A stretch of 64,000 nucleotides of DNA, taken from assembly GCF_008831285.2 (NCBI RefSeq), contig NC_045139.1, forward strand, positions 3,754,704-3,818,703, in the 5' to 3' direction. The notes under the pieces were generated by a model. The model was not told the DNA's origin and did not search any database. It was given only the letters and a program-made list of their open reading frames with translations. How positions within the stretch are numbered: position 1 is the first letter of the stretch; each line of letters opens with the position of its first letter. The position numbers were made by a program, and so were the translations under genes. The DNA comes from Nymphaea colorata. Taxonomy: Eukaryota > Streptophyta > Magnoliopsida > Nymphaeales > Nymphaeaceae. Of the stretch, positions 1 through 44,186 are shown in pieces.

Positions 1-312
1 AGGTCTTATGCATCGATTGATGGTGGAGTTATGTTTCTCCTTTTTACACCATTGGTCAAAAATTTTAAAACATGAAGAAGAAGAAAGCATTGAAGCAGGT
101 CATTACCATGGAGTCTAATGTAATGACAGTCTAAGTGAGAAAAAATTTCAACCATCAACCAGCAAAGTTAGTTTACTTTTGTTTTGGATTGTGTCGCTAC
201 TCTTGAGCAACAAAAATTGCATGATAATCCATGTTTGATTGTGTTACTGAGCATTAAATTCATATTTTAAAGTGTTAAGTATGTAATTTTTGTATATGGC
301 GAATCCTTATAT

Positions 313-928
313 GTTCATTATACAATTGCAAGTATGGTCACCTCAACAAAGTTTGAACGAAAAGTAGAAACCGAACTTCCATTCATTATGTTATTCGTTT
401 CGATGATTTCCTAGTCAATTATTTTGCTCCGAAATTTTGGTCAGATTCATGGAACACTACGCTACAATGTTCTACGGATGTACTTAAGTTTCTAGCAAAC
501 ATTCATACATAGGAGGAATACGTAAAATTTTTAACAAACACTCCTACGCATGTATAGGAGTATGTAATGACCCAAATACCCTTCATAAAATGGAAAAAAA
601 TGGTTTTAAAAACGTTATCTGTTCATTATACAATTGCAAGTATGGTCACCTCAACAAAGTTTGAACGAAAAGTAGAAACCGAACTTCCATTCATTATGTT
701 ATTCGTTTCGATGATTTCCTAGTCAATTATTTTGCTCCGAAATTTTGGACAGATTCATGGAACACTACGCTATAATGTTCTACGGATGTACTTAAGTTTT
801 TAGCAAACATTCACACATAGGAGGAATACGTAAAATTTTTAGCAAACACTCCTACGCATGTATAGGAGTATGTAATGACTCAAATACCCTTCATAAAATG
901 GAAAAGAAGGGTTTTAAAAACGTTAAAA
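313..928. repeat. Internal 308-bp duplication in the leftmost monomer
   Basis: The segment at 313-620 is repeated at 621-928 inside the partial leftmost monomer; every other monomer has it once. The two halves differ at only a few bases. The second copy joins straight after the AAAACGTT motif, where other monomers continue with AAAAGGAGATC. This is a local duplication superimposed on the 1236-bp array. Confidence 0.9.
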
Positions 929-2299
929 GGAGATCATAAAGAATAAAAAGACTAGAAAGTACACGACATTATCAAAAATTTCTAAAATGTCTCAATCCCT
1001 CTGTAAATATCTTGTTATTTGTGGCTTGTTTGCATTTGTGGTTGTCTTTTGTTTTTAGTTTTGGCAATGGCGACTTTGTCTTCTTTTTCTTCATCTGTTG
1101 GGGCTTTCTACGATCACCTATCGCCTCACTTCATGGTGTTTTTGTGTTATTCGATATTTGGTATTTTAGTTTTCGTGATGGTGATTTGGTTTCGCGTTCT
1201 GCGCTCTTTTGTGCTATTGAAGAGTTTGTTTGCTACGGTGAGTTTCTCCTTTTCTTCAGTCCAAGACGTTTCAGTTGGGTTTCTCATCGCTCAGCAATTT
1301 TTGTCCCACAAAAGGTGGTTCAAGAATGTTATCAACAAAGTGACATTGCAGTGTCATGTACTCATTATTTTTTGTCCTTTGCTTCCCAGAAAAAGGCTTA
1401 CGTGATTTTTGTTGTTGCGGCCACTGTGTTCAGGGCAATGTCTTCTATGCCCAAGAATGGCGGCGTTGTTACACTTACAGTGATAAATTGTGTTTTTTTT
1501 TTAAAGTTGCAGTCACTCTTTTGTTGGTTATTCTGATAGCATGGGGTCTTACGCATCGATTGATGGTGGAGTTATGTTTTTCCTTTTTACACCATTGGTC
1601 AAAAATTTTAAAATATGAAGAAGAAGAAAGCGTTGAAGCAGGTCATTACCATGGAGTCTAATATAATGACAGTCTAAGTGAGACAAATTTCAACCATCAA
1701 CCAGCAAAGTTAGTTTACTTTTGTTTTGGAATGTGTGGCTACTCTTGAGCAACAAAAATTGAATGATAATCCATGTTTGATTGTGTTACTGAGCATTAAA
1801 TTCATATTTTAAAGTGTTAAGTACGTAATTTTTGTATACGGCGAATCCTTATCTGTTCATTATACAATTGCAAGTATGGTCACCTCAACAAAGTTTGAAC
1901 GAAAAGTAGAAACCGAACTTCCCTTCATTATGTTATTCGTTTCGATGATTTCCTAGTCAATTATTTTGCTCCGAAATTTTGGTCAGATTCATGGAACACT
2001 ACGCTACAATGTTCTACGGATGTACTTAAGTTTCTAGCAAACATTCATACATAGGAGAAATACGTAAAATTTTTAACAAACACTCTTACGCATGTATAGG
2101 AGTATGTAATGACCCAAATACCCTTCATAAAATGGAAAAGAAGGGTTTTAAAAACGTTAAAAGGAGATCATAAAGAATAAAAAGACTAAAAAGTACACGA
2201 CATTATCAAAATTTCTAAAATGTCTCAATCCCTCTGTAAATATCTTGTTATTTGTGGCTTGTTTGCATTTGTGGTTGTCTTTTGTTTTTAGCTTTGGTA

Positions 2300-2896
2300 A
2301 TGGCGACTTTGTCTTCTTTTTCTTCATCTGTTGGGGCTTTCTACGATCACCTATCGCCTCACTTGATGGTGTTTTTGTGTTATTCGATATTTGGTATTTT
2401 AGTTTTCGTGATGGTGATTTGGTTTCGCGTTCTGCGCTCTTTTGTGCGATTGAAGAGTTTGTTTGCTACGGTGTGTTTCCCTTTTTTTTCAGCCCATGAC
2501 GTTTCAGTTGGGTTTCTCATCGCTCAGCAATTTTTGTCCCAGAAACGACGGTTCAGAATTGTTCTCAACAAAGTGACATTGCAGTGTTATGTACTCATTA
2601 TTCTTGTGTCCTTTGCTTCCCAGGAAAAGGCTTACGTGATTCTTGTTGTTGCGGTCACTGTGTTCAGGGCAATGTCTTCTATGCTCAAGAATGGCGGCGT
2701 TGTTTCACTTACAGTGATAAATTGTGTTCTTTTTTTAAAAGTTGCAGTCGCTCTTTTGTTGGTTATTCTGATAGCATGGGGTCATACGCATCGATTGATG
2801 GTGGAGTTATGTTTTTCCTTTTTACACCATTGGTCAAAAATTTTAAAATATGAAGAAAAAGAAAGCGTTGAAGCAGGTCATTACCATGGAGTCTAA
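2300..2896 (+). other. Recurrent 198-codon open frame in the array monomer (probably not a gene)
   Basis: An ATG-initiated frame of 198 codons begins MATLSSFSSS and ends at a TAA just before the T-rich half stops. Equivalent intact frames lie at 3536-4132, 4772-5368 and 6008-6604. Other copies are broken. The copy starting at 1067 has a frameshift near 1370, the 7189 copy has a TAA near 7268, and the 10897 copy has a TGA at 11099. The copies at 8425 and 9661 have ATT instead of the ATG. The protein would be very hydrophobic with three or four possible membrane spans, but T-rich codons give that by composition alone. Between the 2300 and 3536 copies I count roughly 13 replacement and 5 silent changes, close to neutral expectation. 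Confidence 0.2.
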
Positions 2897-5800
2897 TATA
2901 ATGACAGTCTAAGTGAAAAAAATTTCAACCATCAACCAGCAAAGTTAGTTTACTTTTGTTTTGGAATGTGTGGCTACTCTTGAGCAACAAAAATAGAATG
3001 ATAATCCATGTTTGATTGTGTTACTAAGCATTAAATTCATATTCTAAAGTGTTAAGTAGGTAATTTTTGTATTCGGCGAATCCTTATCTGTTCATTATAC
3101 AATTGCAAGTATGGTCACCTCAACAAAGTTTGAACGAAAAGTAGAAACCGAACTTCCCTTCATTATGTTATTCGTTTCGATGATTTCCCAGTCAATTATT
3201 TTGCTCCGAAATTTTGGTCAGATTCATGGAACACTACGCTACAATGTTCTACGGATGTACTTAAGTTTCTAGCAAACATTCATACATAGGAGGAATACGT
3301 AAAATTTTTAACAAACACTCCTACGCATGTATAGGAGTATGTAATGACCCAAATACCCTTCATAAAATGGAAAAGAAGGGTTTTAAAAACGTTAAAAGGA
3401 GATCATAAAGAATAAAAAGACTAGAAAGTACACGACATTATCAAAAATTTCTAAAATGTCTCAATCCCTCTGTAAATATCTTGTTATTTGTGGCTTGTTT
3501 GCATTTGTGGTTGTCTTTTGTTTTTAGTTTTGGTAATGGCGACTTTGTCTTCTTTTTCTTCATCTATTGGGGCTTTCTACGATCACCTATCGCCTCACTT
3601 GATGGTGTTTTTGTGTTATTCGATATTTGGTATTTTAGTTTTCGTGATGGTGCTTTGGTTTCGCGTTCTACGCTCTTTTGTGCGATTGAAGAGTTTGTTT
3701 GCTACGGTGTGTTTCCCTTTTTCTTCAGTCCATGACGTTTCAGTTGGGTTTCTCATCGCTCAGCAATTTTTGTTCCAGAAACGACGGTTCAGAATTGTTC
3801 TCAACAAAGTGACGTTGCAGTGTTATGTACTCATTATTCTTGTGTCATTTGCTTCCCAGAAAAAGGCTTACGTGGTTCTTGTTGTTGCGGCCACTGTGTT
3901 CAGGGCAATGTCTTCTATGCTCAAGAATGGCGGCGTTGTTTCACTTACAGTGATAAATTCTGTTCTCTTTTTAAAAGTTGCAGTCGCTCTTTTGTTGGTT
4001 ATTGTGATAGCATGGGGTCATACGCATCGATTGATGGTGGAGTTATGTTTTTCCTTTTTACACCGTTGGTCAAAAATTTTAAAATACGAAGAAGAAGAAA
4101 GCGTTGAAGCAGGTCATTACCATGAAGTCTAATGTAATGACAGTCCAAGTCAGAAAAATTCCAACCATCAACCATCAAAGTTAGTTTACTTTTGTTTTGG
4201 AATGTGTGGCTACTCTTGAGCAACAAAAATTGAATGATAATCCATGTTTGATTGTGTTACTGAGCATTAAATTCATATTTTAAAGTGTTAAGTAGGTAAT
4301 TTTTGTATATAGCGAATCCTTATATGTTCATTATACAATTGCAAGTATGGTCACCTCAACAAAGTTTGAACGAAAAGTAGAAACCGAACTTCCCTTCATT
4401 ATGTTATTCGTTTCGATGATTTCCTAGTCAATTATTTTGCTCTGAAATTTTGGTCAGATTCATGGAACACTACGCTACAATGTTCTACGGATGTACTTAA
4501 GTTTCTAGCAAACATTCACACATACGAAGAATACGTAAAATTTTTAGCAAACACTCCTACGCATGTATAGGAGTATGTATTGACTCAAATACCCTTCATA
4601 AAATGGAAAAGAAGGGTTTTAAAAATGTTAAAAGGAGATCATAAAGAATAAAAAGACTAGAAAGTACACGACATTATCAAAAATTTCTAAAATGTCTCAA
4701 TCCCTCTGTAAATATCTTGTTATTTGTGGCTTGTTTGCATTTGTGGTTGTCTTTTGTTTTTAGTTTTGGTAATGGCGACTTTGTCTTCTTTTTCTTCATC
4801 TGTTGGGGCTTTCTACGATCACCTATCGCCTCACTTGATGGTGTTTTTGTGTTATTCGATATTTGGTATTTTAGTTTTCGTGATGGTGATTTGGTTTCGC
4901 GTTCTACGCTCTTTTGTGCGATTGAAGAGTTTGTTTGCTACGGTGTGTTTCCCTTTTTCTTCAGTCCATGACGTTTCAGTTGGGTTTCTCATCGCTCAGC
5001 AATTTTTGTCTCAGAAACGACGGTTCATGATTGTTCTCAACAAAGTAACATTGCAGTGTTATGTACTCATTATTCTTGTGTCCTTTGATTCCCAGAAAAA
5101 GGCTTACGTGATTCTTGTTGTTGCGGCCACTGTGTTCAGGGCAATGTCTTCTATGCCCAAGAATGGCGGCGTTGTTTCACTTACAGTGATAAATTATGTT
5201 CTTTTTTTAAAAGTTGCAGTCGCTCTTTTGTTGGTTATTCTGATAGCATGGGGTCTTACACATCGATTCATGGTGGAGTTATGTTTTTCCTTTTTACACC
5301 ATTGGTCAAAAATTTTAAAATATGAAGAAGAAGAAAGCGTTGAAGCAGGTCATTACCATGGAGTCTAATGTAATGACAGTCTAAGTGAGAAAAATTTCAA
5401 CCATCAACCAGCAAAGTTAGTTTACTTTTGTTTTGGAATGTGTGGCTACTCTTGAGCAACAAAAATTGAATGATAATCCATGTTTGATTGTGTTACTGAG
5501 CATTAAATTCATATTTTAAAGTGTTAAGTTGGTAATTTTTGTATACGGCGAATCCTTATATGTTCATTATACAATTGCAAGTATGGTCACCTCAACAAAG
5601 TTTGAACGAAAAGTAGAAACTGAACTTCCCTTCATTACGTTATTCGTTTCGATGATTTCCTAGTCAATTATTTTGCTCCGAAATTTTGGTCAGATTCATG
5701 GAACACTACGCTACAATGTTCTACGGATGTACTTAAGTTTTTAGCAAACATTCATACATTGGAGGAATACGTAAAATTTTTAACAAACACTCCTACGCAT

Positions 5801-7269
5801 GTATAGGAGTATGTAATGACCCAAATACCCTTCACAAAATGGAAAATAAGGGTTTTAAAAACATTAAAAGGAGATCATAAAGAATAAAAAGACTAGAAAG
5901 TACACGACAGTATCAAAAATTTCTAAAATGTCTCAATCCCTCTGTAAATATCTTATTATTTGTGGCTTGTTTGCATTTGTCGTTGTCATTTGTTTTAAGT
6001 TTTGGTAATGGCAACTTTGTCTTCTTTTTCTTCATCTGTTGGGGCTTTCTACGATCACCTATCGCCTCACTTAATGTTGTTTTTGTGTTATTCGATATTT
6101 GGTATTTTAGTTTTCGTGATGGTGATTTGGTTTCGCGTTCTACGCTCTTTTTTGCGATTGAAGAGTTTGTTTGCTACAGTGTGTTTCCCTTTTTCTTCAG
6201 TCTATGACGTTTCAGTTGGGTTTCTCATCGCTCAGCAATTTTTGTCCCAGAAACGACGGTTCAAAATTGTTCTCAACAAAGTGACATTGCAGTGTTATGT
6301 ACTCATTATTCTTGTGTCCTTTGCTTCCCAGAAAAAGGCTTACGTGGTTCTTGTTGTTGCGGCCACTGTGTTCAGGGCAATGTCTTCTATGCCCAAGAAT
6401 GGCGGCGTTGTTTCACTTACAGTGATAAATTGTGTTCTCTTTTTGAAAGTTGCAGTCGCTCTTTCGTTGGTTATTCTGATAGCATGGGGTCATACGCATC
6501 GATTGATGGTGGAGTTATGTTTTTCCTTTTTACACCGTTGGTCAAAAATTTTAAAATATGAAGAAGAAGAAAGCGTTGAAGGAGGTCATTACCATGAAGT
6601 CTAATGTAATGACAGTCCAAGTGAGAAAAATTCCAACCATCAACCAGCAAAGTTAGTTTACTTTTGTTTTGGAATGTGTGGCTACTCTTGAGCAACAAAA
6701 ATTGAATGATAATCCATGTTTGATTGTGTTACTGAGCATTAAATTCGTATTTTAAAGTGTTAAGTAGGTAATTTTTGTATATGGCGAATCCTTATCTGTT
6801 CATTATACAATTGCAAGTATGGTCACCTCAACAAAGTTTGAACGAAAAGTAGAAACCGAACTTCCCTTCATTATGTTATTCGTTTCGATCATTTCCTAGT
6901 CAATTATTTTGCTCCGAAATTTTGGTCAGATTCATGGAACACTACGCTACAATGTTCTACGGATGTACTTAAGTTTCTAGCAAACATTCATACATAGGAG
7001 GAATACGTAAAATTTTTAACAAACACTCCTACGCATGTATAGGAGTATGTAATGACCCAAATACCCTTCATAAAATGGAAAAGAAGGGTTTTAAAAACGT
7101 TAAAAGGAGATCATAAAGAATAAAAAGACTAGAAAGTACACGATAGTATCAAAAATTTCTAAACTGTCTCAATCCCGCTGTAAATATCTTGTTATTTGTG
7201 GCTTGTTTGCATTTGTGGTTGTCTTTTGTTTTTAGTTTTGGTAATGGCGACTTTGTCTTCTTTTTCTTA

Positions 7270-9842
7270 ATCTGTTGGGGCTTTCTACGATCACCTATCG
7301 CCTCACTTGATGGTGTTTTTGTGTTATTCGATATTTGGTATTTTAGTTTTCGTGATGGTGATTTGGTTTCGCGTTCTGCGCTTTTTTGTGCGATTGAAAA
7401 GTTTGTTTGCTACGGTGTGTTTCCCTTTTTCTTCAGTACAGGACGTTTCAGTTGGGTTTCTCATCGCTCAACAATTTTTGTCCCAGAAACGACGGTTCAG
7501 AATTGTTCTCAACAAAGTGACATTGCAGTGTTATGTACTCATTATTCTTGTGTCCTTTGCTTACCAGAAAAAGGCTTACGTGGTTGTTGTTGTTGCGGCC
7601 ACTGTGTTCAGGGCAATGTCTTCTAGGTCCAAGAATGGCGGCGTTGTTTCACTTACAGTGATAAATTGTGTTCTCTTTTTTATAGTTGCAGTCGCTCTTT
7701 TGTTGGTTATTCTGATAGCATGGGGTCATACGCATCGATTGATGGTGGAGTTATGTTTCTCTTTTTTACACCCTTGGTCAAAAATTTTAAAATATGAAGA
7801 ACAAGAAAGAATTGAAGCAGGTCATTACCATGAAGTCTAATGTAATGACAGTCTAAGTCAGAAAAATTCCAACCATCAACCAGCAAAGTTAGTTTACTTT
7901 TGTTTTGGAATGTGTGGCTACTCTTGAGCAACAAAAATTGAATGATAATCCATGTTTGATTGTGTTACTGAGCATTAAATTCATATTTTAAAGTGTTAAG
8001 TAAGTAATTTTTGTATATGGCGAATCCTTATCTGTTCATTATACAATTGCAAGTATGGTCACCTCAACAAAGTTTGAACGAAAAGTAGATACCGAACTTC
8101 CCTTCATTATGTTATTCGTTTCGATGATTTCCTAGTCAATTATTTTGCTCCAAAATTTTGGTCAAATTCATGGAACACTACGCTACAATGTTCTACGGAT
8201 GTACTTAAGTTTCTAGCAAACATTCATACATAGGAGGAATACGTAAATTTTTTAACAAACACTCCTACGCATGTATAGGAGTATGTAATGACCCAAATAC
8301 CCTTCATAAAATGGAAAAGAAGGGTTTTAAAAACGTTAAAAGGAGATCATAAAGAATAAAAAGACTAGAAAGTACACGACATTATCAAAAATTTCTAAAA
8401 TGTCTCAATCCCTCTGTAAATATCTTGTTATTTGTGGCTTGTTTGCATTTGTGGTTGTCTTTTGTTTTTAGTTTTGGTAATTGCGACTTTGTCTTCTTTT
8501 TCTTCATCTGTTGGGGCTTTCTACGATCACCTATCGCCTCACTTGATGGTGTTTTTGTGTTATTCGATATTTGGTATTTTAGTTTTCGTGATGGTGATTT
8601 GGTTTCGCGTTCTGCGCTTTTTTGTGCGATTGAAAAGTTTGTTTGCTACGGTGTGTTTCCCTTTTTCTTCAGTACAGGACGTTTCAGTTGGGTTTCTCAT
8701 CGCTCAACAATTTTTGTCCCAGAAACGACGGTTCAGAATTGTTCTCAACAAAGTGACATTGCAGTGTTATGTACTCATTATTCTTGTGTCCTTTGCTTAC
8801 CAGAAAAAGGCTTACGTGGTTGTTGTTGTTGCGGCCACTGTGTTCAGGGCAATGTCTTCTAGGTCCAAGAATGGCGGCGTTGTTTCACTTACAGTGATAA
8901 ATTGTGTTCTCTTTTTTATAGTTGCAGTCGCTCTTTTGTTGGTTATTCTGATAGCATGGGGTCATACGCATCGATTGATGGTGGAGTTATGTTTCTCTTT
9001 TTTACACCCTTGGTCAAAAATTTTAAAATATGAAGAACAAGAAAGAATTGAAGCAGGTCATTACCATGAAGTCTAATGTAATGACAGTCTAAGTCAGAAA
9101 AATTCCAACCATCAACCAGCAAAGTTAGTTTACTTTTGTTTTGGAATGTGTGGCTACTCTTGAGCAACAAAAATTGAATGATAATCCATGTTTGATTGTG
9201 TTACTGAGCATTAAATTCATATTTTAAAGTGTTAAGTAAGTAATTTTTGTATATGGCGAATCCTTATCTGTTCATTATACAATTGCAAGTATGGTCACCT
9301 CAACAAAGTTTGAACGAAAAGTAGATACCGAACTTCCCTTCATTATGTTATTCGTTTCGATGATTTCCTAGTCAATTATTTTGCTCCAAAATTTTGGTCA
9401 AATTCATGGAACACTACGCTACAATGTTCTACGGATGTACTTAAGTTTCTAGCAAACATTCATACATAGGAGGAATACGTAAATTTTTTAACAAACACTC
9501 CTACGCATGTATAGGAGTATGTAATGACCCAAATACCCTTCATAAAATGGAAAAGAAGGGTTTTAAAAACGTTAAAAGGAGATCATAAAGAATAAAAAGA
9601 CTAGAAAGTACACGACATTATCAAAAATTTCTAAAATGTCTCAATCCCTCTGTAAATATCTTGTTATTTGTGGCTTGTTTGCATTTGTGGTTGTCTTTTG
9701 TTTTTAGTTTTGGTAATTGCGACTTTGTCTTCTTTTTCTTCATCTGTTGGGGCTTTCTACGATCACCTATCGCCTCACTTGATGGTGTTTTTGTGTTATT
9801 CGATATTTGGTATTTTAGTTTTCGTGATGGTGATTTGGTTTC
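7270..9842. repeat. Two array copies identical over about 1.3 kb
   Basis: By eye, 7270-8606 is identical to 8506-9842, including private variants not seen in other monomers: an AGGTCC in place of ATGCCC, a GTAGATACCG, and an ATTGCG replacing the usual ATGGCG. The shared block crosses the monomer junction. This is what one recent unit-length duplication by unequal crossing-over would leave. Confidence 0.85.
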
Positions 9843-11715
9843 ACGTTCTGCGCTCTTTTGTACGATTGAAGAGTTTGTTTGCTACGGTGTGTTTCCCTTT
9901 TTCTTCAGTCCAGGACGTTTCAGTTGGGTTTCTCATCGCTCAACAATTTTTGTCCCAGAAACGACGGTTCAGAATTGTTCTCAACAAAGTGACATTGCAG
10001 TGTTATGTACTTATTATTCTTGTGTCCTTTGCTTCCCAGAAAAAGGCTTACGTGGTTCTTGTTGTTGCGGCCACTGTGTTCAGGGCAATGTCTTCTATGC
10101 CCAAGAATGGCGGCGTTGTTTCACTTACAGTGATAAATTGTGTTCTCTTTTTGAAAGTTGCAGTCGCTCTTTTGTTGGTTATTCTGATAGCATGGGGTCA
10201 TACGCATCGATTGATGGTTGAGTTATGTTTTTCCTTTTTACACCGTTGGTCAAAAATTTTAAAATATGAAGAAGAAGAAAGCGTTGAAGCAGGTCATTAC
10301 AATGGAGTTTAATGTAATGACAGTCCAAGTCAGAAAAATTCTAACCATCAACCAGCAAAGTTAGTTTACTTTTGTTTTGGAATGTGTGGCTACTCTTGAG
10401 CAACAAAAATTGAATGATAATCCATGTTTGATTGTGTAACTGAGCATTAAATTCATATTTTAAAGTGTTAAGTAGGTAATTTTTGTATATGGCGAATCCT
10501 TATCTGTTCATTATACAATTGCAAGTATGGTCACCTCAACAAAGTTTGAACGAAAAGTAGAAACCGAACTTTCCTTCATTATGTTATTCGTTTCGATGAT
10601 TTCCTAGTCAATTATTTTGCTCCGAAATTTTGGTCAGATTCATGGAACACTACGCTACAATGTTCTACGGATGTACTTAAGTTTCTAGCAAACATTCATA
10701 CATTGGAGGAATACGTAAAATTTTTAACAAACACTCCTACGCATGTATAGGAGTATGTAATGACCCAAATACCCTTCACAAAATGGAAAAGAAGGGTTTT
10801 GAAAACGTTAAAAGGAGATCATAAAGAATAAAAAGACTAGAAAGTACACAACATTATCAAAAATTTCTAAAATGTCTCAATCCCTCTGTAAATATCTTGT
10901 TATTTGTGGCTTGTTTGCATTTGTGGTTGTCTTTTGTTTTTAGTTTTGGTAATGGCGACTTTGTCTTCTTTTTCTTCATCTGTTGGGGCTTTCTACGATC
11001 ACCTATCGCCTCACTTGATGGTGTTTTTGTGTTATTCGATATTTGGTATTTTAGTTTTCGTGATGGTGATTTGGTTTCGCGTTCTGCGCTCTTTTGTGTG
11101 ATTGAAGAGTTTGTTTGCTACGGTGTGTTTCCCTTTTTTTTCAGTCCATGACGTTTCAGTTGGGTTTCTCATCGCTCAGCAATTTTTGTACCAGAAACGA
11201 CGGTTCAGAATTGTTCTCAACAAAGTGACATTGCAGTGTTATGTACTCATTATTCTTGTGTCCTTTGCTTCCCAGAAAAAGGCTTACGTGGTTCTTGTTG
11301 TTGCGGCCACTGTGTTCAGGGCAATGTCTTCTATGCGCAAGAATGGCGGCGTTGTTTCACTTACAGTGATAAATTGTGTTCTCTTTTTGAAAGTTGCAGT
11401 CGCTCTTTTGTTGGTTATTCTGATAGCATGGGGTCATACGCATCGATTCATGGTGGAGTTATGTTTCTCCTTTTTACACCATTGGTCAAAAATTTTAAAA
11501 TATGAAGAACAAGAAAGAATTGAAGCAGGTCATTACCATGAAGTCTAATGTAATGACAGTCCAAGTCAGAAAAATTCCAACCATCAACAAGCAACTTGGT
11601 GGCTTGTGAGGAACTTGAACATTTACTTCACATAATGTTTTCCTTTGTTGATGGACTGATCGGCCTCTCCCGACTAAGCTTGGTCCTTAAAGGCAAGTCC
11701 AGGGGAATGGCAAGG

Positions 11716-12655: not shown

Positions 12656-13560
12656 TTACTTTGTTGCCATGCCTCGCACCAAGCTTCCTAAAAGGTCTAC
12701 TGTCAAAACCGTCGACTCCAAGGCCTTAGCCGCTAACATGCCGGAATATTCGTTGAAGCCGAAAAAAACGATATGCAGCACTTGCTTGGAAAGGTAGATC
12801 CACACCACAAGCTTCAATATGTACATTAGGCACTCCAAGTTGTGGAGCTCATGTGGACAGTTCAACTCTTCTCTTGAAAAGGTGGAAATAGCTGTCCAAG
12901 TGACGAAAAGGAAGCGAACAAGGAGGTAAGAAAATGGTGGATTCACAAAGTAGAAGACCACCAAGAACGCGTGGGAGCTGATCGCCAGTTGGTGTGGCAG
13001 CACAAGCAAGGCTTCCCATGTTGAGACCATCGACCAAGCACGATCGCACTCCTTAATATGAGAAAGAGAGAGAGAGTTGGTAATTATAGCTATCAAGAAC
13101 AAAAGAAGCACAAAAAATTAAAAAAAAATATGATATCACCGCAAACCTCTGGGCTTCCTGATGGAGGCAGACAGAAAATGAACACAGCCGTTGTTCGCCG
13201 GATGCATATTGTCAAATGGACCATGATCAACATGAAGGACTCGCATAGCATGGCCATCAAGCGGCAACTGTCAGCGGAAATACCGGGGGCAACGTCAAAG
13301 ATATTGAAGCTTTTGAGAAAGCTAGCTACAACAAAGTAGCTGAGAAAAGCGGCTTCACCGCGCCCGGCGGCGATCAGGTAACGGAGTTCCCGAGGTGCGT
13401 CGGGTCTTGGAGAAGCTCGCCAGAGACAAAGGGCCAGCCGCATGGAGGAGAGGTAGCAAACCAGAAGGTAGGCAAGGGGTGCGTTAATGGTGGAGAATAG
13501 CAGCTACAGCGCGTGAATGTAGATCAACAGAATGATGGGAGTCATGATCACTTGTGCTCA
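12656..13560 (-). pseudogene. Possible degraded multi-membrane-span gene, copy A (unrecognised)
   Basis: Two minus-strand reading frames (13443-13093 and 13111-12656) give hydrophobic, exon-like translations that resemble each other. One has an AFL..NPPFSYLLV stretch and the other an equivalent NAPLAYLLV stretch just upstream of 13443. GC content is higher than the surroundings. Frames are broken between the two blocks, with an in-frame stop upstream of the second. No family is recognised. It could be a decayed tandem-domain membrane protein or chance open frames in GC-richer sequence. Confidence 0.22.
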
Positions 13561-15170: not shown

Positions 15171-15744
15171 GAAGGTTGAAGGATGTGATTTTGGATTATT
15201 TTGAATTCTAAGTATTACTGCATTAGTTAAAGATAATATCAAGGGAAGCTAATTTCTTGAGGCGTTTTTATGTTTCTGTTTTGTCTTCCTTTTCATTTGC
15301 TGTATGGAATTCCTCTTTCCATTTGTACCTATAATTTTTTCTCCTTTAAAAGGTACAAAATCTTTTGGACAGCACCAAAGAATTTCCTCTCTTTGTTTCA
15401 CCATTTTCCTTTTTAATTTATGGAAGGGAGAAATTTTTTGTAATTAATTTAAAAATTAAAAAAATCTTCGTCAATCATACACGGCGTTTTGTCCCTTTGA
15501 TCAGCGACAAATGAAAAGAGAGAAAGAGAGAGTGCGGTATTTTTGTAATTAACTTAAGAAGTAAACAAATCTTTACATAATTACTTTCCCTATGTAAAAT
15601 CAATTTTAATAAATCAACATTTTCCATCATAATTTCTTGAGGGGGCTCACCGGTGCGGCAGCGCTAAAGTTTTGTTAATAAATTAAAAGTAAAAAAAAAA
15701 ATCTTCATTTTAACTACTTGTCGTATATAAAATCTTTAACTACA
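15171..15744. other. Non-genic spacer
   Basis: AT-rich sequence with several poly-A and poly-T runs and a GAGAGAAAGAGAGAG tract near 15520. I see no coding frame and no repeat with defined ends. Confidence 0.5.
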
Positions 15745-16664
15745 AGTTCAACTTCCTATCCCTCCTTATGACCATTCGGCCTGTTGTATTCGCTGACATA
15801 CAAGTGAATCCAGACAGAGACAACCAATGTCATAGAACCACTTCAAATCTTCCTCCTACAGAAAATGAATCAGATGAACAAGAAAGCATAAGTGAAATTG
15901 GTTAAACAGAGTCTATTTCTTCTATGGGTTCCAGACATTGAACACCATAAATCCACGAGACAGAACTACGTCCACTTAGGTCCAAAGTCCCACAACGCTT
16001 CCAGAGAAGTGCAACCTCTTGCATAAAGATGCGTCAGAGAATACGGCAACTGTGGAAGATAGCGAATTTCTTGGCACTCGCATATTGAGAGCAGCTGAAG
16101 TCTTGAAAGTTGGCTGATGCATAATGGAAGTTCATCCAAATTGTTGCCGTCTAATATCAGGGCTTCCAGTGATGGCATACTTTCAAAAACAAAGTTAGAT
16201 AGAAGGTCAGAGAAGAATATCCCATCCCAATTTAGGTTCGGAACCAGCAACTTCTGTAAGTTTGCTGGAGTCGGATTTGAACCTCCAGGTTCTCGGAATT
16301 TGAGCCTAACCTGATATACACCGCCCAGTTTTTCAGCAGTCCTTCTAGAGTCCAGTTCCTGCAGATTGGCCAAATCCACGATGGAGTCTCTGCCTTTTAT
16401 TTTTGTGCCTACTATTGACAGATCTTTCAAAGACTCCAATCTGCCGATGAGGCCTGGTATTTCACCAGTAAGCTGCACCTCTCCAAAGACGGCTCCGAAA
16501 GTTTTTTAAGCAGTGCCACCGATTCATGTGGCTTCTTAACTCCAGGATCTTCAGTTGGCCAAGAACCAATTGACCGCAAACCCTTTGCTAAATTTCATAA
16601 CAAAAAATAAATGAAGAATTAGTAACCTGAAAAGGAACTATCATAATTCCTTGCATCTTACCAC
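15745..16664 (-). pseudogene. TNL leucine-rich-repeat fragment, duplicated from the 29-31 kb gene
   Basis: The segment aligns at high identity to the 3' part of the TNL at 22901-33134: part of the fifth exon (15745-15880), part of intron 4, exon 4 and intron 3. Relative to that gene it has three deletions. About 400 bp of intron 4 are missing at the junction near 15912. About 25 bp of exon 4 are missing near 15993. About 300 bp at the start of exon 4 are missing near 16540. A small change near 15800 also shifts the exon 5 frame to a stop. The remaining open stretch (16478-15966, 170 codons) is LRR, with SLEALILDGNNLDELP-type repeats. It is non-functional, but it preserves the uninterrupted copia target site at about 15830. 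Confidence 0.92.
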
Positions 16665-16909
16665 TCCATCAAACTCAAGTGAACTCCTTTAATCTAGGGT
16701 TTCTTTTTCTGATTTTCAAAATTCAAACCAAGGAAAGCGGTCAAGTCCAATAAAGAGTTGGTAAAAGTGCTTAAACAAATCGAGCTGACCGAGTTCGAGC
16801 ACAACTCGACCCGTGTGCAGGGGTCAACACATCTCTCGCTCTGTCTCTCTAAATTAGTGTTTATTTGCCTTCCGTTTCTCTGACCATAGCAAAAAAAATT
16901 TATTCTGCA

Positions 16910-17790
16910 GGTCTTCAAGAAACTGAAGGTCCTAGAGATTACACGTTGTAGTGATGTTGCAATGGCAAATCTGGATTTCTCACTCATGCCGAGCCTAGTG
17001 AAGCTGGTGATTGAGGGGATTGAGTATTCAAGGTATTTTCATCAAATTCCCAAGTCGATTTGGGGGTTTGGGTAGCTTGAATACTTGAGAATTACAGGTG
17101 GGGAAATGAAGGAACTGTTCAGTAGTATCAGTAACTTGAGTTTCCTTCAAACCCTTCACCTTGAAGGCACATGGCTTTCAGAGTTGCCTGAAGGTTTTGG
17201 GGATTTGGCAGCCCTAAGAGAACTCATCCTCTCAGGATGTGCCTTTCTCAAACATCTTCCACAACTTCCATGTTCCCTTCAAACCCTTGACCTTGGAGTT
17301 GCCAGAAAGTTTGGGGGATTTGGCAACCCTAAGAGAGCTCATCCTTTCAGGATGTGTCTCTCCCAACCATCTTCCACAATTTCCACGTTCCCTTCAAAGG
17401 CTTGAGCTTGGAGGATCCAAGCGGCTTTTAGAATTGCCAAAAGGTTTGGGGGATTTGGCAGCCCTAAGGGAACTCATCCTTCGCAACTGTAATGAATTGA
17501 AAGAGATTCCTAGTTCTGTGGTGCAACTAAACCATCTACAGACCCTTATCGTCATTAACTGTTGCGGACTTCGCCGTCTGCCACAATTTCCATCATCTTT
17601 GATCACTCTTGATGCCTATGGGTGTATAAATTTGAGACAGGTCGCAGATATTTCAAACCTACAACATCTAGAGACTTTGAATCTAGATAGATGTGATGTA
17701 CTTGAAGTGGTACCTGGCCTACGCAATTTACAATCCCTAACATTTTTAAGACTGCCATTTCATATTAGTCAGAGGGAGAGGCTCTAGAGT
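16910..17790 (+). pseudogene. TNL-type LRR exon fragment on the opposite strand
   Basis: A plausible acceptor (TTTATTCTGCAG) precedes an exon of TNL-style leucine-rich repeats with motifs such as SFLQTLHLEGTWLSELPEG, DLAALRELILSGC and LQHLETLNLDRCDVLEVV. Two defects break it. An in-frame TAG follows WGFG near 17072. A frame change near 17300 matches loss of about 20 bp from a repeat whose next copy, near 17410, is complete. The frame ends in TAG at 17787. No TIR or NB-ARC sequence is attached. It is more diverged from the 29-kb TNL than the minus-strand fragment beside it, so it derives from another member. Confidence 0.85.
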
Positions 17791-18902
17791 AGAATCTTAT
17801 TGGGGACAGTTGCTTAGTCGCTGGCTGGTTCATTTGAGGACTACTTTTTCCATCACTTCTGTTTTCAGGCTTGAAATTTGGGTGGATTAATATGACATTG
17901 CTTGACTCCACTAATTCTACATTCTTCTATGACTTAAGTTTGCCTCTCTTTCAAAGAAGAAAATAAATTAGATGTTAGATTTATGTCTGAGATTGGTTCA
18001 ACCTTCTTTATCTTGTTCCATTTAGATGGATTTGATGGTCAATTTTCTGGATAATAATGTATTTGAAAGTGGAACTTTTTTACTTGGAAAAGGCTAGTCA
18101 CTATGCAAACATGCCAACAAAAATGAAAAGTGCTACATTATGCTCGCCAACAAAGACCAGTCGAAAAGGAAAAATTGCCAATTATTTAATAATCGATATA
18201 CTTTTTCTTAGAAATTATTGAATATATATATATAAGCTTTAATTAAATTTCTATTAATTTGAGAAAAAAATTATGATTTAGTTGTAGTATATATTGAATA
18301 AGAAAGATCAATTAGATAAAGTTTATCGTCCTAAAGTTAACAGTTAACACAACTTTGATATATTTCACGCTTGTCGTAAGAAATGTTGCTTTTGTTGAAA
18401 AATTATAAGGACTTTATTTTTGCATTAATATGAAATAAAAAAACAAAACAAATTTGCAAGCTTTGCTTTTGTTGAAAAATTATAAGGACTTTATTTTTGC
18501 ATTAATATGAAATAAAAAAATAAAACAAATTTGCAAGCACGACTTTTTAATTGTTAGTAAAACGGTAGGCCGCAAAAGAAAATGTCTCAATATAAAACTT
18601 TATGAATTAGAGGAAATTAAAGAAGGAAAGGAGTAGGAAATTGGAAGTGCTGCTCCTCCCTCTGCCACATCATAGACTCCAAATTTTTTTTTAAAAAAAA
18701 ATCAATGCAAAAAGTTTGTTTATATGTTAGAAATTAATGAAAATAACAGATAGGAAGGAATTGATGAAAACGAAAAAAATTAGAAAAGTGCCTTCAAGTT
18801 TTGAGTATCCTATAAAAACTTTCGAAATATTCTGTGCCATTGCGTAACATTTGCAAATGCGTAACATTTGCAAATACATTTCACCATAGGAAATTAACTT
18901 TG
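17791..18902. other. Non-genic spacer with a 77-bp tandem duplication
   Basis: AT-rich spacer. A 77-bp unit at 18386-18462 is repeated at 18463-18539 with one or two changes. No coding frame was seen. Confidence 0.7.
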
Positions 18903-23669: not shown

Positions 23670-23674
23670 TCATA
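23670..23674. repeat. Copia target-site duplication, left copy
   Basis: TCATA, repeated exactly at 28862-28866. The related unfilled site at about 15830 has TCATA once. Confidence 0.97.
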
Positions 23675-23923
23675 TGTAGAGATACGAACAAGAAGAAGAG
23701 GAAGAGAAGCAATGATCACGATGTAACGTGGAAAACCCTCGACACGAGGGAGAAAAAACCACGAATGAGGAGGAGTTGGTGCCCACTAGCAGCCAGACTC
23801 TCTCTCTCTTAAGATTATCATTAACTCTTAAGGATTAGGGTTACATGACTTAAGTAGAGCCCAAAACGGGCTACAAGGCGGGTCGGGTATGGATCCGGAC
23901 CCGAAACCCACAATCTATCAACA
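23675..23923 (-). repeat. Copia 3' LTR
   Basis: A 249-bp direct repeat of 28613-28861, identical except for G at 23792 in place of A at 28730 (plus strand). On the minus strand it starts TGTTGATAGATTGTGGG and ends in CA. Its first six bases, TGTTGA, supply the last codon and the stop of the polyprotein. Confidence 0.97.
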
Positions 23924-26900
23924 CTCCCCCTCAAGTTGGGCGTACATATCAAACATGCCCAACTTGGATACATTCCTCTCAAATGAAGCTGAAGGAAGAG
24001 CTTTCGTCAGAACATCAGCAGTTTGGTCTTCAGACTTCATGTAAGGTAAGATCAACTCTTTCGCATCAATCCTTTCCCGAATGAAGTGACGATCAATTTC
24101 AACATGTTTTGTTCTGTCGTGAAGTACAGGATTGTTGGCTAAGTTGATTGCAGACTTGTTATCACAATACATCTTCATAGGTCCTTCAATCTCTATTCCA
24201 ATGTCAGTCAACAATATCTTCAACCATAATAACTCTGACACTCCCATAGCAACTGCCCTATATTCTGCCTCTGCACTGGATCTAGAGCAAACATCCTGTC
24301 TCTTGCTCCTCCATACAACAAGGTTTCCTCCCAAGTAGACACAGTACCCTGTAGTGGATCGTCTGGTATCACCACAACCTGCCCAATCCGCATCAGAATA
24401 GCCCTCGATTTCCACAGTCTCTTGTTTCACATACAGGAGTCCCTTACCAGGATTTTTCTTCACGTAGCATAGCACTCTGTCCACAGCCTTCAGATGTGCA
24501 TCGGTTGGCGCATGCATGAATTGGCTCAAAACATTCACCGCAAAGGTGATATCAGGTCTCGTGAGGGTAAGATAAATTAGCTTCCCAACCAAACGTTGAT
24601 ATCTTCCCTTGTCTTCTTCACAGAGAGGCTCTCCATCTCTAAGACTCAACTTGTGCTCAGTGTCAAAAGGGGTAGGAGTAGGTCTACATCCCAATTTACC
24701 AGTTTCTTCCAGCAGGTCTAATGTATATTTCCTTTGGTTTAGTACAAGACCAGTACTAGACCTAACAACCTCCATACCAAGAAAATACCTTAGTTTTCCA
24801 AGATCTTTGAGGTCGAATTCTGTAGCCAGTAACCCTTTTAGCTTGATAATCTCCTCCTCATCATCTCCAGTAACAATCATGTCATCTACGTAGACGAGCA
24901 GGAGAGTAACCTTGCTCTCCTTCTTCTTCACAAACAGAGTGTGATCTCCATTTCCTTGTTTGTATCCATGACGTATCATCACTCTTCTCAGTCGTTCAAA
25001 CCACGCTCTGGGCGATTGCTTAAGGCCATACAATGCCTTTTTCAGCTTACAACACATTTCTGGTTTTTCATATCCTGGAGGCATATGCATATATACTTCT
25101 TCTTCGAGGTCACCATTGAAGAATGCATCAAAGGTTTCCAAGTAATCAATTCCATATTTCTGGCTAAACCCCTTGGCCACAAGTCGAGCTTTATATCTTT
25201 CAACACTCCCATCTGGTTTGTACTTGATGGTATACACCCATTTGGATCCAACTAGGTGAGCGGCTTCAGGAATCTTCACCACTTCCCATGTCAAGTTTCT
25301 TCTTAGGGCATCTATTTCTTCTTTCATTGCATCGGCCCACTTGGAGTCACTTTGAGCTTCAGCGACAGTCCTGGGAATCACAGCCAAAGAAAGAGTAGAA
25401 ACAAAGCACTTGTAATCTTTCCCAAGTCTGGAATAAGAAACAAAATTACCAATGGGGTGTTGAGTACATGACATGACACCCTTTCTCAGGGCAATGGGAA
25501 GATCGTCATTCTTCTTTTCAACCTCATCATGGGTCTCCACGGTCTCCTCGGTAGGACTTGGTTCATCCAGGGAAGGAGTGGCATTGGGATTGGAAGTAGA
25601 TCTAGCATCACAAGTCATCACCTCTGTCCGAGTACCTCGTCTAGAGTAGAACTGTCCAAACAACTGAGGGTCTTCCTTCTCAATGTTATTGTCACCCCTT
25701 TCCTCCTTCTCAGGCACATCAACAGTATTAAGTGATTCTGTTTTCTTGTAGTCCAAAAAATCTATAAACTGAAGTTCCTGTCTCTGAGAATACTCTTCCC
25801 TGCCCACAGACTGCTCCCCCTGAAGAGGATTTGCACCAAAGTAAGAGGCATGTTCCAAGAAGGTAACATCCCTCGTAACATAAGCTCGACCAGTAATAGG
25901 ATCAATACATTTGTATCCTTTTTGCGTAGGGGAGTATCCAACAAAGACACATTTGATAGACCTAGGATCAAGTTTCTTGACATTTGGACTGTGATCATGG
26001 ATAAAACATACACAACCAAAAACACGAGGAGGAAGAGGAAATGGTGGACGACTGCCAGGAAGCAACGAGTGGGGAGTCCTACCATTCAAAACACGACTGG
26101 GCATGCGGTTAATAAGATAGGCACTAGTAAGAACTGCATCACCCCAATAGTGTTTAGGAAGATTTCTCTGAAACAAAAGAGCCCTGGTGACATTAAGAAG
26201 TTGACGATTTTTCCTTTCAGCTACCCCATTTTGAGGGGGGGTGTAACTACAGGATGTCTTGTGAACAATCCCCCGTTGTCTAAGAAACTCCTCAACAGGC
26301 CGACACATGTACTCACGGGCATTATCGGACCTGAAAGTTTTAACATTCGCACCATACTGGGTATGCACAAGAAGAATAAATGTCTCGATGATTCGAGGAA
26401 CCTCGCTGCGGTCTTTTAACAAGTATATAAATGTAGCACGAGAGAAATCATCAATGAAAGTGATAAAATACTGGAAACCTTGACGGGTATGAATGCCCGA
26501 AGGTCCCCATACATCAGAGTGAATCAGAGAAAAAGCTTCATTAGCACAACTAGAAGAAAGAGGGTACGAAGCCCTCACATGTTTGGCAAACTGACAAACA
26601 TCACAAGAAATGGAAGACACATCAAAGGAGGAACACAAGTCTGGAAACAAATGTTTCAAAATCCCAAAAGGTAAATGCCCAAAACGTTCATGCCAGTACA
26701 TAAAAGACTGAAGACAATCTTCTCTTCTCTTATCTGTCTTGCGGATCGCTGTCAACAGAGCAGTAGCCACACGTATGGGAAGACGATATAATCCATCAGA
26801 AGCTAAACCAATCCCAATCCTCTTCCCTGTCACCAAGTCCTGCAAAACACAACGATCGGCAGAGAATATAAGTTCACAATTCAATTCTTTAGTAAGTCTA

Positions 26901-28156
26901 CTGACTGATAAGAGATTTAAAGGAAACTGGAGAACATGTAAAGCGCCCTGCACATGAAATTTGTCCAACAAGGACAGAGTGCCTTCGCCTGCCACACAGG
27001 TAGAGGAACCATCTGCAAGAGAAACACGTTCCCTTCCCGAGGACAACTTATACTCATGAAACAATTTTGGATTACCTGTCATGTGATGAGTAGCACCACT
27101 ATCTACAATCCATTCCCCCACAGAAGAGTTACCTTGATTGCCAATAGCTGCAAGAGCATGATTAGCTGTAGTTCCCTCTGAGGTCTCAGTCTTGTTGACA
27201 TCGAGCCTGCCCAAATAAGCCCTTAGTTCACGAAGCTGGTCAGCAGAAATGGAGACTTTTTCTCCACTAGAGGCTTGCACCTCAGACACGGGCGTTCTCC
27301 CAGTCAAAGATCTCCCTCTGTTCCCCTTCTTTTCTGGATGAAGATCCCAGCAATAATCCACAGTGTGACCTGTCTTCTTGCAGTAAGTGCACCGGCGAAG
27401 AGACCTAGATGGGCCGCCAGGACCACGACTCACGAGAGCAGATCTCTCGTTATAGGGCACAAGTTCCCTCTTCCCTTCTTTTGTAACAAGCCTTCTCTGT
27501 TCTTCCGCTTCAACACAGGAGTACACATCTTCAATACTGGACACCTCCCCTGAATTCAAAATCTGACTTCGAACACCTTCAAACTCATCATTTAAACCTG
27601 CTAAAAATAGGAACACCCTGTTTTCCCATTCATGAGCAACATAAAGCGCCTGATCATGGGGACAATGCCAAGGAATATCAGAATGATAGTCAAGCTCTTC
27701 CCACTTGGCTTTCAAAGCCCCATAGTACTCTGCAACAGACGAGGTCCCTTGTCGAATGCCATAGACTGTCTTCATTACTTGGTAAGTACGAATTGCGGTC
27801 TTCTTTTGGCCATACATTTGCTCGAGGACCACCCACATGTCTCTAGCAGTCTTCTTCCGAAGGATAAGGGGCTGAATATCGGCGGAAACGGAATTGACAA
27901 TCCAAGTTTTCACTTGATTATCCTCAAGAAACCAAGTATGCCACACATCACTTGTTCTTGCTGGTTCGGGGTTGCTCCCATCAATATAGGCCATGCGACC
28001 ACGGCCAGCAATCCCCATGGTCATAGCAGGTGACCACGAGAAATAATTATCCTTGGTGAGGCGAAGAGTGATGACCTGCATGGGAACATTCTCAGTTCTA
28101 AAAGCCCCTATTTCAGTGGGATTGGTGTTGACGGTTGACGAGGAAGAGGCTGCCAT
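23918..28156 (-). CDS. Copia Gag-Pol polyprotein (1412 aa) with a reverse-transcriptase deletion
   Basis: I start at the ATG at 28156 (MAASSSSTVN); the frame is open further upstream without another ATG. The domains are in copia order. Gag is followed by a CX2CX4HX4C zinc knuckle near residue 255. The aspartic protease DSGATHHMTG is near 352. The integrase zinc region is near 490, with DDE residues near 547 (HSDVWGP), 610 (FRSDNAREY) and 643 (GVAERKNR). The reverse transcriptase has YVDD near 1090. RNase H starts near 1257 (GYSDADWAG). At residue 1009 the text jumps from GIDYLETF to DAFFNGDLEEEVYM. Copia enzymes normally have about 30 more residues there, including the motif A aspartate. The deletion keeps frame, so the enzyme is probably inactive. 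Confidence 0.95.
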   Translation of the reverse strand: MAASSSSTVNTNPTEIGAFRTENVPMQVITLRLTKDNYFSWSPAMTMGIAGRGRMAYIDGSNPEPARTSDVWHTWFLEDNQVKTWIVNSVSADIQPLILRKKTARDMWVVLEQMYGQKKTAIRTYQVMKTVYGIRQGTSSVAEYYGALKAKWEELDYHSDIPWHCPHDQALYVAHEWENRVFLFLAGLNDEFEGVRSQILNSGEVSSIEDVYSCVEAEEQRRLVTKEGKRELVPYNERSALVSRGPGGPSRSLRRCTYCKKTGHTVDYCWDLHPEKKGNRGRSLTGRTPVSEVQASSGEKVSISADQLRELRAYLGRLDVNKTETSEGTTANHALAAIGNQGNSSVGEWIVDSGATHHMTGNPKLFHEYKLSSGRERVSLADGSSTCVAGEGTLSLLDKFHVQGALHVLQFPLNLLSVSRLTKELNCELIFSADRCVLQDLVTGKRIGIGLASDGLYRLPIRVATALLTAIRKTDKRREDCLQSFMYWHERFGHLPFGILKHLFPDLCSSFDVSSISCDVCQFAKHVRASYPLSSSCANEAFSLIHSDVWGPSGIHTRQGFQYFITFIDDFSRATFIYLLKDRSEVPRIIETFILLVHTQYGANVKTFRSDNAREYMCRPVEEFLRQRGIVHKTSCSYTPPQNGVAERKNRQLLNVTRALLFQRNLPKHYWGDAVLTSAYLINRMPSRVLNGRTPHSLLPGSRPPFPLPPRVFGCVCFIHDHSPNVKKLDPRSIKCVFVGYSPTQKGYKCIDPITGRAYVTRDVTFLEHASYFGANPLQGEQSVGREEYSQRQELQFIDFLDYKKTESLNTVDVPEKEERGDNNIEKEDPQLFGQFYSRRGTRTEVMTCDARSTSNPNATPSLDEPSPTEETVETHDEVEKKNDDLPIALRKGVMSCTQHPIGNFVSYSRLGKDYKCFVSTLSLAVIPRTVAEAQSDSKWADAMKEEIDALRRNLTWEVVKIPEAAHLVGSKWVYTIKYKPDGSVERYKARLVAKGFSQKYGIDYLETFDAFFNGDLEEEVYMHMPPGYEKPEMCCKLKKALYGLKQSPRAWFERLRRVMIRHGYKQGNGDHTLFVKKKESKVTLLLVYVDDMIVTGDDEEEIIKLKGLLATEFDLKDLGKLRYFLGMEVVRSSTGLVLNQRKYTLDLLEETGKLGCRPTPTPFDTEHKLSLRDGEPLCEEDKGRYQRLVGKLIYLTLTRPDITFAVNVLSQFMHAPTDAHLKAVDRVLCYVKKNPGKGLLYVKQETVEIEGYSDADWAGCGDTRRSTTGYCVYLGGNLVVWRSKRQDVCSRSSAEAEYRAVAMGVSELLWLKILLTDIGIEIEGPMKMYCDNKSAINLANNPVLHDRTKHVEIDRHFIRERIDAKELILPYMKSEDQTADVLTKALPSASFERNVSKLGMFDMYAQLEGEC
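23924..23933 (-). promoter_or_regulatory. Polypurine tract of the copia element
   Basis: On the minus strand TTGAGGGGGAG runs directly into the 3' LTR. This is the usual position and composition for the primer of plus-strand DNA synthesis. Confidence 0.85.
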
Positions 28157-28600
28157 AATCACAGACCAGTAGGCAGCAAGGGCAGCAGGAAGCAATCACA
28201 CGATACAACACCAAAAAACGGACAGAGAGCAGGAAACGGAACCAGGCAAAGCGGCACGGCGCCGGAAAAGGACACGGCGTTGGGCGGAAAAAGACCGCCG
28301 TTGGACAGGTCGTCGTTTGGGCAGGCCGACGCTGGGCGGAAGCGGCTGAACGGGAACGCCGCTGGGCAGGCCGACGCTGGGCGGAAGCGGCTGAACGGGA
28401 ACGCCGCTGGGCAGGGCGTCGCTGGGCGGAAGTAGCGGATTCCTGAGCGGCGCTGATCAGGGCGGCGCTGGGCGGAGACGGCGGCGGGACGACAGACGAC
28501 GCTCGGGCACGAGCGTCGGGCACGGGCGAGACGATGAACAGTGCCGGGCGATTCTCCTCTAACACGGGCAAAAGACAACCAGAAACGCCGGAACTTCACG
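28157..28600 (-). other. Copia 5' leader with GC-rich 45-bp repeats
   Basis: The untranslated leader lies between the primer-binding site and the polyprotein ATG. It is much more GC-rich than the surroundings. A 45-bp unit (GGGCAGGCCGACGCTGGGCG and following) is repeated about 2.4 times at 28320-28432. Open frames through it are by-products of the repeat. Confidence 0.8.
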
Positions 28601-28612
28601 GCTCTGATACCA
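28601..28612 (-). promoter_or_regulatory. Copia primer-binding site, initiator tRNA-Met
   Basis: TGGTATCAGAGC on the minus strand is the standard plant initiator tRNA-Met complement, directly abutting the LTR. Confidence 0.95.
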
Positions 28613-28861
28613 TGTAGAGATACGAACAAGAAGAAGAGGAAGAGAAGCAATGATCACGATGTAACGTGGAAAACCCTCGACACGAGGGAGAAAAAACCAC
28701 GAATGAGGAGGAGTTGGTGCCCACTAGCAACCAGACTCTCTCTCTCTTAAGATTATCATTAACTCTTAAGGATTAGGGTTACATGACTTAAGTAGAGCCC
28801 AAAACGGGCTACAAGGCGGGTCGGGTATGGATCCGGACCCGAAACCCACAATCTATCAACA
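28613..28861 (-). repeat. Copia 5' LTR
   Basis: A 249-bp direct repeat of 23675-23923. It would hold the element's promoter. In the disrupted TNL it would also supply the premature stop to a read-through transcript. Confidence 0.97.
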
Positions 28862-28887
28862 TCATAGAACCACTTCAAATCTTCCTC
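28862..28887 (-). pseudogene. TNL exon 5, first 26 nt
   Basis: The acceptor TTTTCTGTAG is followed by GAG GAA GAT TTG and ends at TATGA, where the copia element begins. It reads EEDLKWFYD in phase 0 with exon 4. The matching uninterrupted sequence is at about 15826-15852 in the duplicated fragment, which confirms continuity with 23669. Confidence 0.9.
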
Positions 28888-29298
28888 CTACAGAAAATGA
28901 ATCAGATGAACAAAAAAGCATAAGTGAAATTGATCAAACAGATTCTTATATGCCGCAAAATCAATGCACTCATTCAATCAATACTTACTTTGCACCCAGT
29001 CAACAGAGTCTAATTAATACAATTCATTACCAATGGTTCATCATTTAACGAGAATCTAGCAAGACTGTATCACTCAAGGGACCGTTTGGTTGGAGGTAAA
29101 TCCCAAAATTACAGGGCCCATTCATTTTAGAAACACCAAAGTGGCGACTACCAATTGACACCTGAGCCTCACAGGGGCCACGGGTTGAGTGGCTCAAATT
29201 TCTGGGTGACTTGCCTAGGTGATGACCCTATCCCAGTTTGAACTGCAAAGGTGCTACACAACTTTCCTCGAGTGGAAAATTTTAAAGAGATTGATTAC

Positions 29299-30333
29299 CT
29301 TTTGGTACGTGATATCAAATTCAGGGCCAAGATGAAAACAACCACTTAGGTCTATTTCTTCTATGGATTCCAGACGTTGAACACCATAAATCCACGAGAC
29401 AGAACTGCATCCTTTTAGGTCCAAAGTCCTCAGGTGCTTTAAGTTTGAAATGTCCCACAACGCTTCCAGAGAAGTGCAACCTCTTGCATGAAGATGCTTC
29501 AGAGAAGACGGCAACTGTGGAAGATAGCGAATTTCTGGGCACTCGCATATTGAGAGCAGCTGAAGTCTTGAAAGTTGGCTGATGCATAATGGAAGTTCAT
29601 CCAAATTGTTGCCGTCTAATATCAGGGCTTCCAGTGATGGCATACTTTCAAAAACAAAGTTAGATAGAAAGTCTGAGAAGAATATCCCATCCCAATTTAT
29701 GTTCGGAACCCGCAACTTCTGTAAGTTTGCTGGAGTCGGATTTGAACCTCCAGGTTCTCGGAATTTTAGCCTAACCTGATATACACCGCCAAGTTTTTCA
29801 GCAGTCCTTCTAGAGTCCAGTTCCTGCAGATTGGCCAAATCCAGGATGGAGTCTCTGCCTTCTATTTGTGTGCCTACTATTGAGAGATCGTTCAAAGACT
29901 CCAATCTGCCCATGAGGCCTGGTAATTTCACCAGTAAGCTGCACCTCTCCAAAGACAGCTTCGATAGTTTTTTAAGCATTGTCACCGATTCAGGTAGCTT
30001 CTTAACTCCAGTTCCCTCAAGTACGAGAACCACTAGTGCTTCCATGTCGCCCATTCGTTCTGGCAAAGATTCAAAGGAGGTGCAGTAAGAAAGATCTAGA
30101 ATTTCCAGAGAGCTCAACTCAGAGGCTTCTGTTGGCAGCTCACGCAGGGATGTACAGTGTATCATGCTCCAGAACTTCAGCGATTTGAGGTGCCTTTTAG
30201 AGGCATGGACTTTCTTCAAATTGCAACAGAAATCAAGTTTCAACCTTATCAAGAATGGGGTACGAGAAAAATCAGGCGTTGAAGTCAGGCAGGTACAGTC
30301 GCTGAGGTCAAGAATATTCAGTTGGCCAAAAAC
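29299..30333 (-). pseudogene. TNL exon 4: leucine-rich repeats (345 codons)
   Basis: The acceptor GGTCAATAG precedes VFGQLNILDLSDC, and the exon ends TYQK before GTAATC. It is fully open. Repeats are of TNL type, for example LRELPTEASELSSLEILDLS, MEALVVLVLEGTGVKKLP and SLEALILDGNNLDELP. They are irregular, with LxxLxxLxL cores and cysteines at LRR turn positions. The 15.7-16.7 kb fragment derives from this exon and its flanks. Confidence 0.93.
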
Positions 30334-30429
30334 CTATTGACCGCAAACCCTTTGTTAAATTTCATAACAAAAAAATAAATAAAGAATTAGTAACCTGAAA
30401 AGGAACTATCATAATTCCTTGCATCTTAC

Positions 30430-32499: not shown

Positions 32500-32676
32500 C
32501 TGCTATTTTGCAATAAAAAATCAGCGAAAATTTTCCCCTCAAAAGTTTGAATCAAGAAATCCACTAGACGAAGCCATGCTGGTTTATCATCTCAAGCACG
32601 GACTGGACTGACCACCGGGCAAAAGATGTTCAGCTACTTATCGCAGAAAGAGAGACAGAAAGGGAGAGAAACTTAC

Positions 32677-44123: not shown

Positions 44124-44186
<63 letters not shown>

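Follow-up and report, generated by a model that had tools for sequence, protein, structure and literature searches.

A tandem array of ~1236-bp units in Nymphaea colorata, probably made of decaying copies of a fast-evolving gene

The first 11,588 bp of a 64,000-bp window of Nymphaea colorata DNA are filled by a tandem array of ~1236-bp units, which we regard, at a probability of roughly 0.7, as a tandem array of a duplicated, fast-evolving gene copied together with its flanks, a gene that carries no Pfam name and whose copies are decaying. Since a gene-like frame is found in each block, the units are best read as plant genes that were copied and have partly broken down, not as an unknown satellite. 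A preliminary description of the window had proposed a new long-period satellite; the array is a genuine long-period tandem repeat, but the plain satellite reading is weakened by the gene-like frame and by a relative found outside the array.

Results

Comparison of the first 14 kb of the window with itself gave the highest identity (0.72) at a lag of 1236, followed by lags of 2472, 3708 and 4944, with all the remaining lags at 0.35 or below. A BLASTN search of the window with one unit returned ten other pieces, 93–97.5% identical, all on the plus strand and all within positions 2–11588. The lag peak and the common strand of the BLASTN pieces confirmed that the array is real and runs in a single orientation, as the preliminary description had held, and its expectation that the array begins beyond the window was also correct: the left boundary lies at C2:3753094 (C2 being the contig that holds the window), 1,610 bp outside it. 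The total C2 array thus comprises ~13.2 kb, that is, nine full units and two partial ones (Table 1). Six units measure exactly 1236 bp and one (u1) 1235 bp, and the 1542-bp length of u0 is due to a 308-bp internal tandem duplication. The array and the period reported earlier therefore stand, but an exact 1236-bp step does not describe a series that includes units of 1235, 1542 and 1173 bp; likewise, the array fills the start of the window but ends with the shortened last unit at 11588 rather than at 11594. Pairwise identity among the C2 units was 94.8–99.0% (45 pairs), and the array is A+T-rich (~65%). Head-to-tail, near-identical units, a characteristic of satellites, are thus present in the C2 array.

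Table 1. Array units, their relatives and neighbouring features (window positions unless a contig is named)
Feature	Position	Strand	Remarks
uA, right end	1..222 (remainder left of window, from C2:3753689)	+	frame with one TGA
u0, 1542 bp	223..1764	+	308-bp internal duplication at 307-925; two single-base gaps break frame
u1, 1235 bp	1765..2999	+	intact frame 2300-2896
u2, 1236 bp	3000..4235	+	intact frame 3536-4132
u3, 1236 bp	4236..5471	+	intact frame 4772-5368
u4, 1236 bp	5472..6707	+	ATG frame intact 6008-6604; stop upstream of ATG
u5, 1236 bp	6708..7943	+	frame with early stop
u6, 1236 bp	7944..9179	+	exact recombinant of u7 and u5; isoleucine codon for ATG, otherwise open
u7, 1236 bp	9180..10415	+	isoleucine codon for ATG, otherwise open
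u8, truncated, 1173 bp	10416..11588	+	in-frame stop; right end of array
Exact self-repeat, step 1236, 1337 bp	7270..9842 (7270-8606 = 8506-9842)	+	unequal exchange scar
Two overlapping hydrophobic-peptide frames	12656-13503	-	right of array
TIR-NBS-LRR disease-resistance genes and fragments	15740-17800, 28862-33170		Pfam TIR and LRR matches
Copia-type retrotransposon	23674-28861	-	1425-codon open frame; two 250-bp LTRs 99.6% alike
Distant relative, three repeats	C2:3640.7-3644.0 kb		steps 1492 and 1494 bp
Diverged single copy	C2:3646263-3646766		open 206-codon frame
Second array	C6 ~7711847-7739571	-	own-genome protein search; step 1256

The consensus of u1–u8 contains one long forward frame, at unit positions 477–1133, that measures 218 codons between stops and 198 when counted from its first ATG, with ~640 bp separating successive frames. 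None of 1,000 dinucleotide-shuffled versions of the unit had a frame longer than 202 codons, compared to the 218 codons of the real sequence, and a single one of 3,000 local shuffles reached 218 codons or more (maximum 239). Three-base periodicity was significant in the frame (P = 0.006) but not in the remaining parts of the unit (P = 0.46); as a control, a TIR gene from the same window showed periodicity similar to that of the array frame (P = 0.016). Both the shuffles and the periodicity indicated that the unit holds the gene-like reading frame characteristic of a tandem gene array. The scarcity of A on this strand also leaves a second forward frame of the unit fairly open. Three stretches of the 198-codon product score above the Kyte-Doolittle cut-off commonly used for membrane spans, and the amino acid sequence suggests that the product is probably a small, hydrophobic, membrane-bound protein, with the caveat that T at second codon positions readily yields hydrophobic residues. 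The predicted structure of the unit protein (pLDDT 43) is too weak for use.

Four of the ten C2 copies with the whole frame region, a count that excludes the left partial unit, are intact from the ATG (u1–u4). Pfam returned nothing above its curated cut-offs, the best sub-threshold E-values being 0.056 (a copy from contig C6) and 0.75 (the second frame), and NCBIfam, PHROGs and the PDB sequences contained no match to the unit protein. The earlier statement that the array resembles no known gene family thus holds as far as no named family was found in the libraries searched, but it has to be qualified by the gene-like frame and by the diverged open-frame relative outside the array. The window had no Rfam match at gathering scores and no tRNA, which ruled out an rDNA or tRNA array and bore out the earlier exclusion of rDNA. 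Viral contigs, prokaryote genomes and plasmids were without relatives, as expected for plant sequence, and a search for further copies elsewhere in the window returned none (best E 0.11).

A protein search of the plant's own genome gave 50 matches at E up to 0.01, all of them located in the C2 array, in a second array on contig C6 or in one diverged single copy on C2. The single copy shares 43–47% protein identity with the array frame, and the DNA likeness between them spans unit positions 456–1102, which is about the extent of the frame. Its 166 substitutions over 531 aligned bases introduced no stop codon, compared to 6.1 expected at random (P = 0.0013). All six gaps between the array frame and the single copy have lengths divisible by three, which follows from aligning the two as proteins and was not counted as evidence. 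A homologous open frame outside the array, another characteristic of a tandem gene array, is therefore provided by the single copy. The more distant three-fold relative showed 28–30% amino acid identity to the unit protein (E 2e-6 to 1e-7 with composition correction and the filter off) and an hhalign probability of 96 (E 3.6e-9). The link to this relative is weaker than that to the single copy, since chance likeness arises more easily in hydrophobic proteins and no DNA match was found between the array unit and the three-fold relative. DNA 71–72% like the three-fold relative sits ~1 kb outside one end of the C6 array, suggesting that the C2 and C6 loci both hold the same two branches of the family.

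The C6 array extends over ~28 kb with ~22 units (21 full and two partial), mostly 1256 bp long. The C6 units are 98.1% alike mutually and 91.8% identical to the C2 units; the sole indel between the two consensus sequences, of 20 bp, lies outside the frame, and the C6 consensus retains the ATG and the whole frame. Only one of the 21 full C6 units is intact from the ATG, and the first stop falls at the same codon in eight of them, most simply explained by one change that was then amplified, if the base change is taken to be identical. The count of 21 excludes a partial unit at one end of the array, which holds the frame region with three TAG codons, and a 122-base piece at the other end. A tree of 31 units with midpoint rooting separated the ten C2 units cleanly from the 21 C6 units, indicating that each array was homogenised or expanded independently.

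Substitutions were analysed with u0 and uA excluded. Units u1–u8 of C2 carried 42 protein-altering and 22 silent changes versus 45.4 and 17.3 expected (omega ~0.73, P = 0.11), and the wrong frames gave omega values of 1.96 and 0.89. Comparison of the C2 and C6 consensus sequences gave omega of 0.56 (bootstrap 0.31–1.07), and comparison with the single copy gave 0.89 (0.61–1.29) for C2 and 0.96 (0.64–1.40) for C6. All three bootstrap intervals contain 1, and the evidence on selection is mixed, with no sign of strong present selection among the C2 units, between the arrays or relative to the single copy. The difference between the arrays was larger in the frame (7.9%) than upstream (5.2%) or downstream (2.8%) of it, and variation among the C2 units was slightly higher in the frame (0.111 versus 0.086 changes per site in the rest). 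This pattern fits a fast-evolving or decaying gene that is not strongly constrained.

Such nearly neutral substitution inside the frame would also be expected of an ordinary long-period satellite carrying a long open frame by chance on its T-rich, A-poor strand, an explanation that we consider unlikely. Homogenisation within the arrays is in keeping with it, as is the amplification of broken copies as readily as intact ones, seen in the eight full C6 units with the same first-stop codon. It accounts poorly, however, for a frame that exceeds the shuffles and shows three-base periodicity, and for a diverged open-frame relative whose likeness is limited to about the frame. Very long arrays at high copy number, typical of satellites, were also not what we found: the two arrays of ~13 and 28 kb, as recovered by the own-genome protein search, are a lower bound from this assembly, in which repeats may be collapsed and only candidates were scored, and are far below a megabase satellite.

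The array had a CpG observed/expected ratio of 0.87, higher than those of the TIR gene region (0.73), the retrotransposon (0.62) and the remainder of the window (0.55), and C-to-T changes in the array were ~1.5–1.6 times commoner at CG and CHG than at CHH sites. Both observations fit a young or lightly methylated array. Little CpG depletion is unlike an old methylated repeat and argues against the satellite explanation, but youth alone could account for it.

An array seeded by a transposable element appears improbable. Of the 41 DNA matches in the plant's own genome, 36 include a stretch from within unit positions ~315–472, at 72–84% identity (this search skips common words, listed neither the C2 nor the C6 array and is unfit for copy counting), and a dispersed element carries such a piece: four loci on C4, C16 and C12 (L005–L008), 93–99% alike over ~3.1 kb, contain ~140 bp resembling unit positions 322–472, just upstream of the frame. 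The shared piece nevertheless makes up ~150 bp of the 1236-bp unit, outside the frame, and a scan of three proteins from two forward frames of the unit detected no transposon protein domain. Two further loci, L001 and L003 (C2:3660.7 and 3680.6 kb), hold pieces like unit positions 66–472 with no frame match adjoining and are mutually alike beyond these pieces.

The first half of unit u6 is identical to that of u7 and its second half to that of u5, and no change is private to u6. The resulting exact run at lag 1236 extends over 1337 bp, compared to at most 375 bp across 2,000 simulations that assumed uniform divergence of 3.3%, and one recent unequal exchange that added one unit explains it. 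Exact runs in the C6 array are shorter, reaching 500 bp at a lag of 1256 and 756 bp at a lag of 2512. This single 1337-bp exact duplication might also suggest that the copy count is in part an assembly artefact, which is very improbable given that the other units differ by about 2–5% and that the second array has the same layout.

Several other features were located in the window. The copia-type element is a recent insertion; TCATA was seen by eye at both of its ends as a 5-bp target duplication, and counterparts of its two flanks lie next to each other near 15740–15914, beside an LRR fragment, so that this stretch looks like the empty site of the retrotransposon. Within the TIR-NBS-LRR regions, two stretches share 95.6% identity over 564 bp, and LRR sequence is repeated in tandem, with a 115-bp period, at positions 17181–17413. 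Comparison of the minus-strand hydrophobic-peptide frames with the array frame gave nothing, and the minus-strand frame at 12656–13117 had no Pfam match. Peptides encoded at 43324–44517 on the minus strand resemble exons of a methionine aminopeptidase.

Discussion

The C2 array resembles clustered plant gene families in its head-to-tail copies with flanks, in unequal crossing-over, in the mixture of intact and broken copies and in the diverged relatives nearby. It differs from them in that its units are uniform in length and packed as closely as in a repeat array, and in that the family is without a Pfam name and its coding status is putative. With long-monomer satellites, as described for Vicia faba (PMC5895790), the C2 array shares the period, the A+T-richness and the homogenised head-to-tail units; here, in contrast, two arrays were found, the unit has a gene-like frame and a diverged copy exists outside the arrays. 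A period above 1 kb is unusual, as the preliminary description pointed out, but it is already documented: the Vicia faba paper gives 17 satellite families of 687–2033 bp for that species and cites monomers of more than 5 kilobases (PMC5895790). Our literature search found no paper on a 1236-bp tandem repeat or satellite. With long-period plant satellites already in print, the novelty of the period is modest, and what is of interest is a gene array possibly turning into repeat DNA.

In the gene-array reading that we prefer, each 1236-bp unit would represent a single-exon-like frame of 198 codons with its flanks, copied head to tail, and a protein may have been made from it, now or once. Copy number shifts through unequal crossing-over between whole units, as the exact chimeric unit shows, and the second array of the same unit on C6 was expanded or homogenised separately. 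The arrays persist although most of their copies are losing the frame, so the family may be moving from a gene cluster to repeat DNA. We put forward only tentatively the wider proposal that a fast-evolving membrane-protein family, unnamed in the libraries searched, is turning into satellite DNA, for which the two separately expanded arrays, one with four of ten copies intact and the other with almost all broken, would be the evidence and the single copy the reference.

Views on how satellites arise generally rest on arrays that are old and scrambled. The present genome contains three states for direct comparison: a lone copy, an array that is still partly intact and one in which most copies are broken. 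The analysis also flags an unnamed protein family of a kind that repeat masking could hide.
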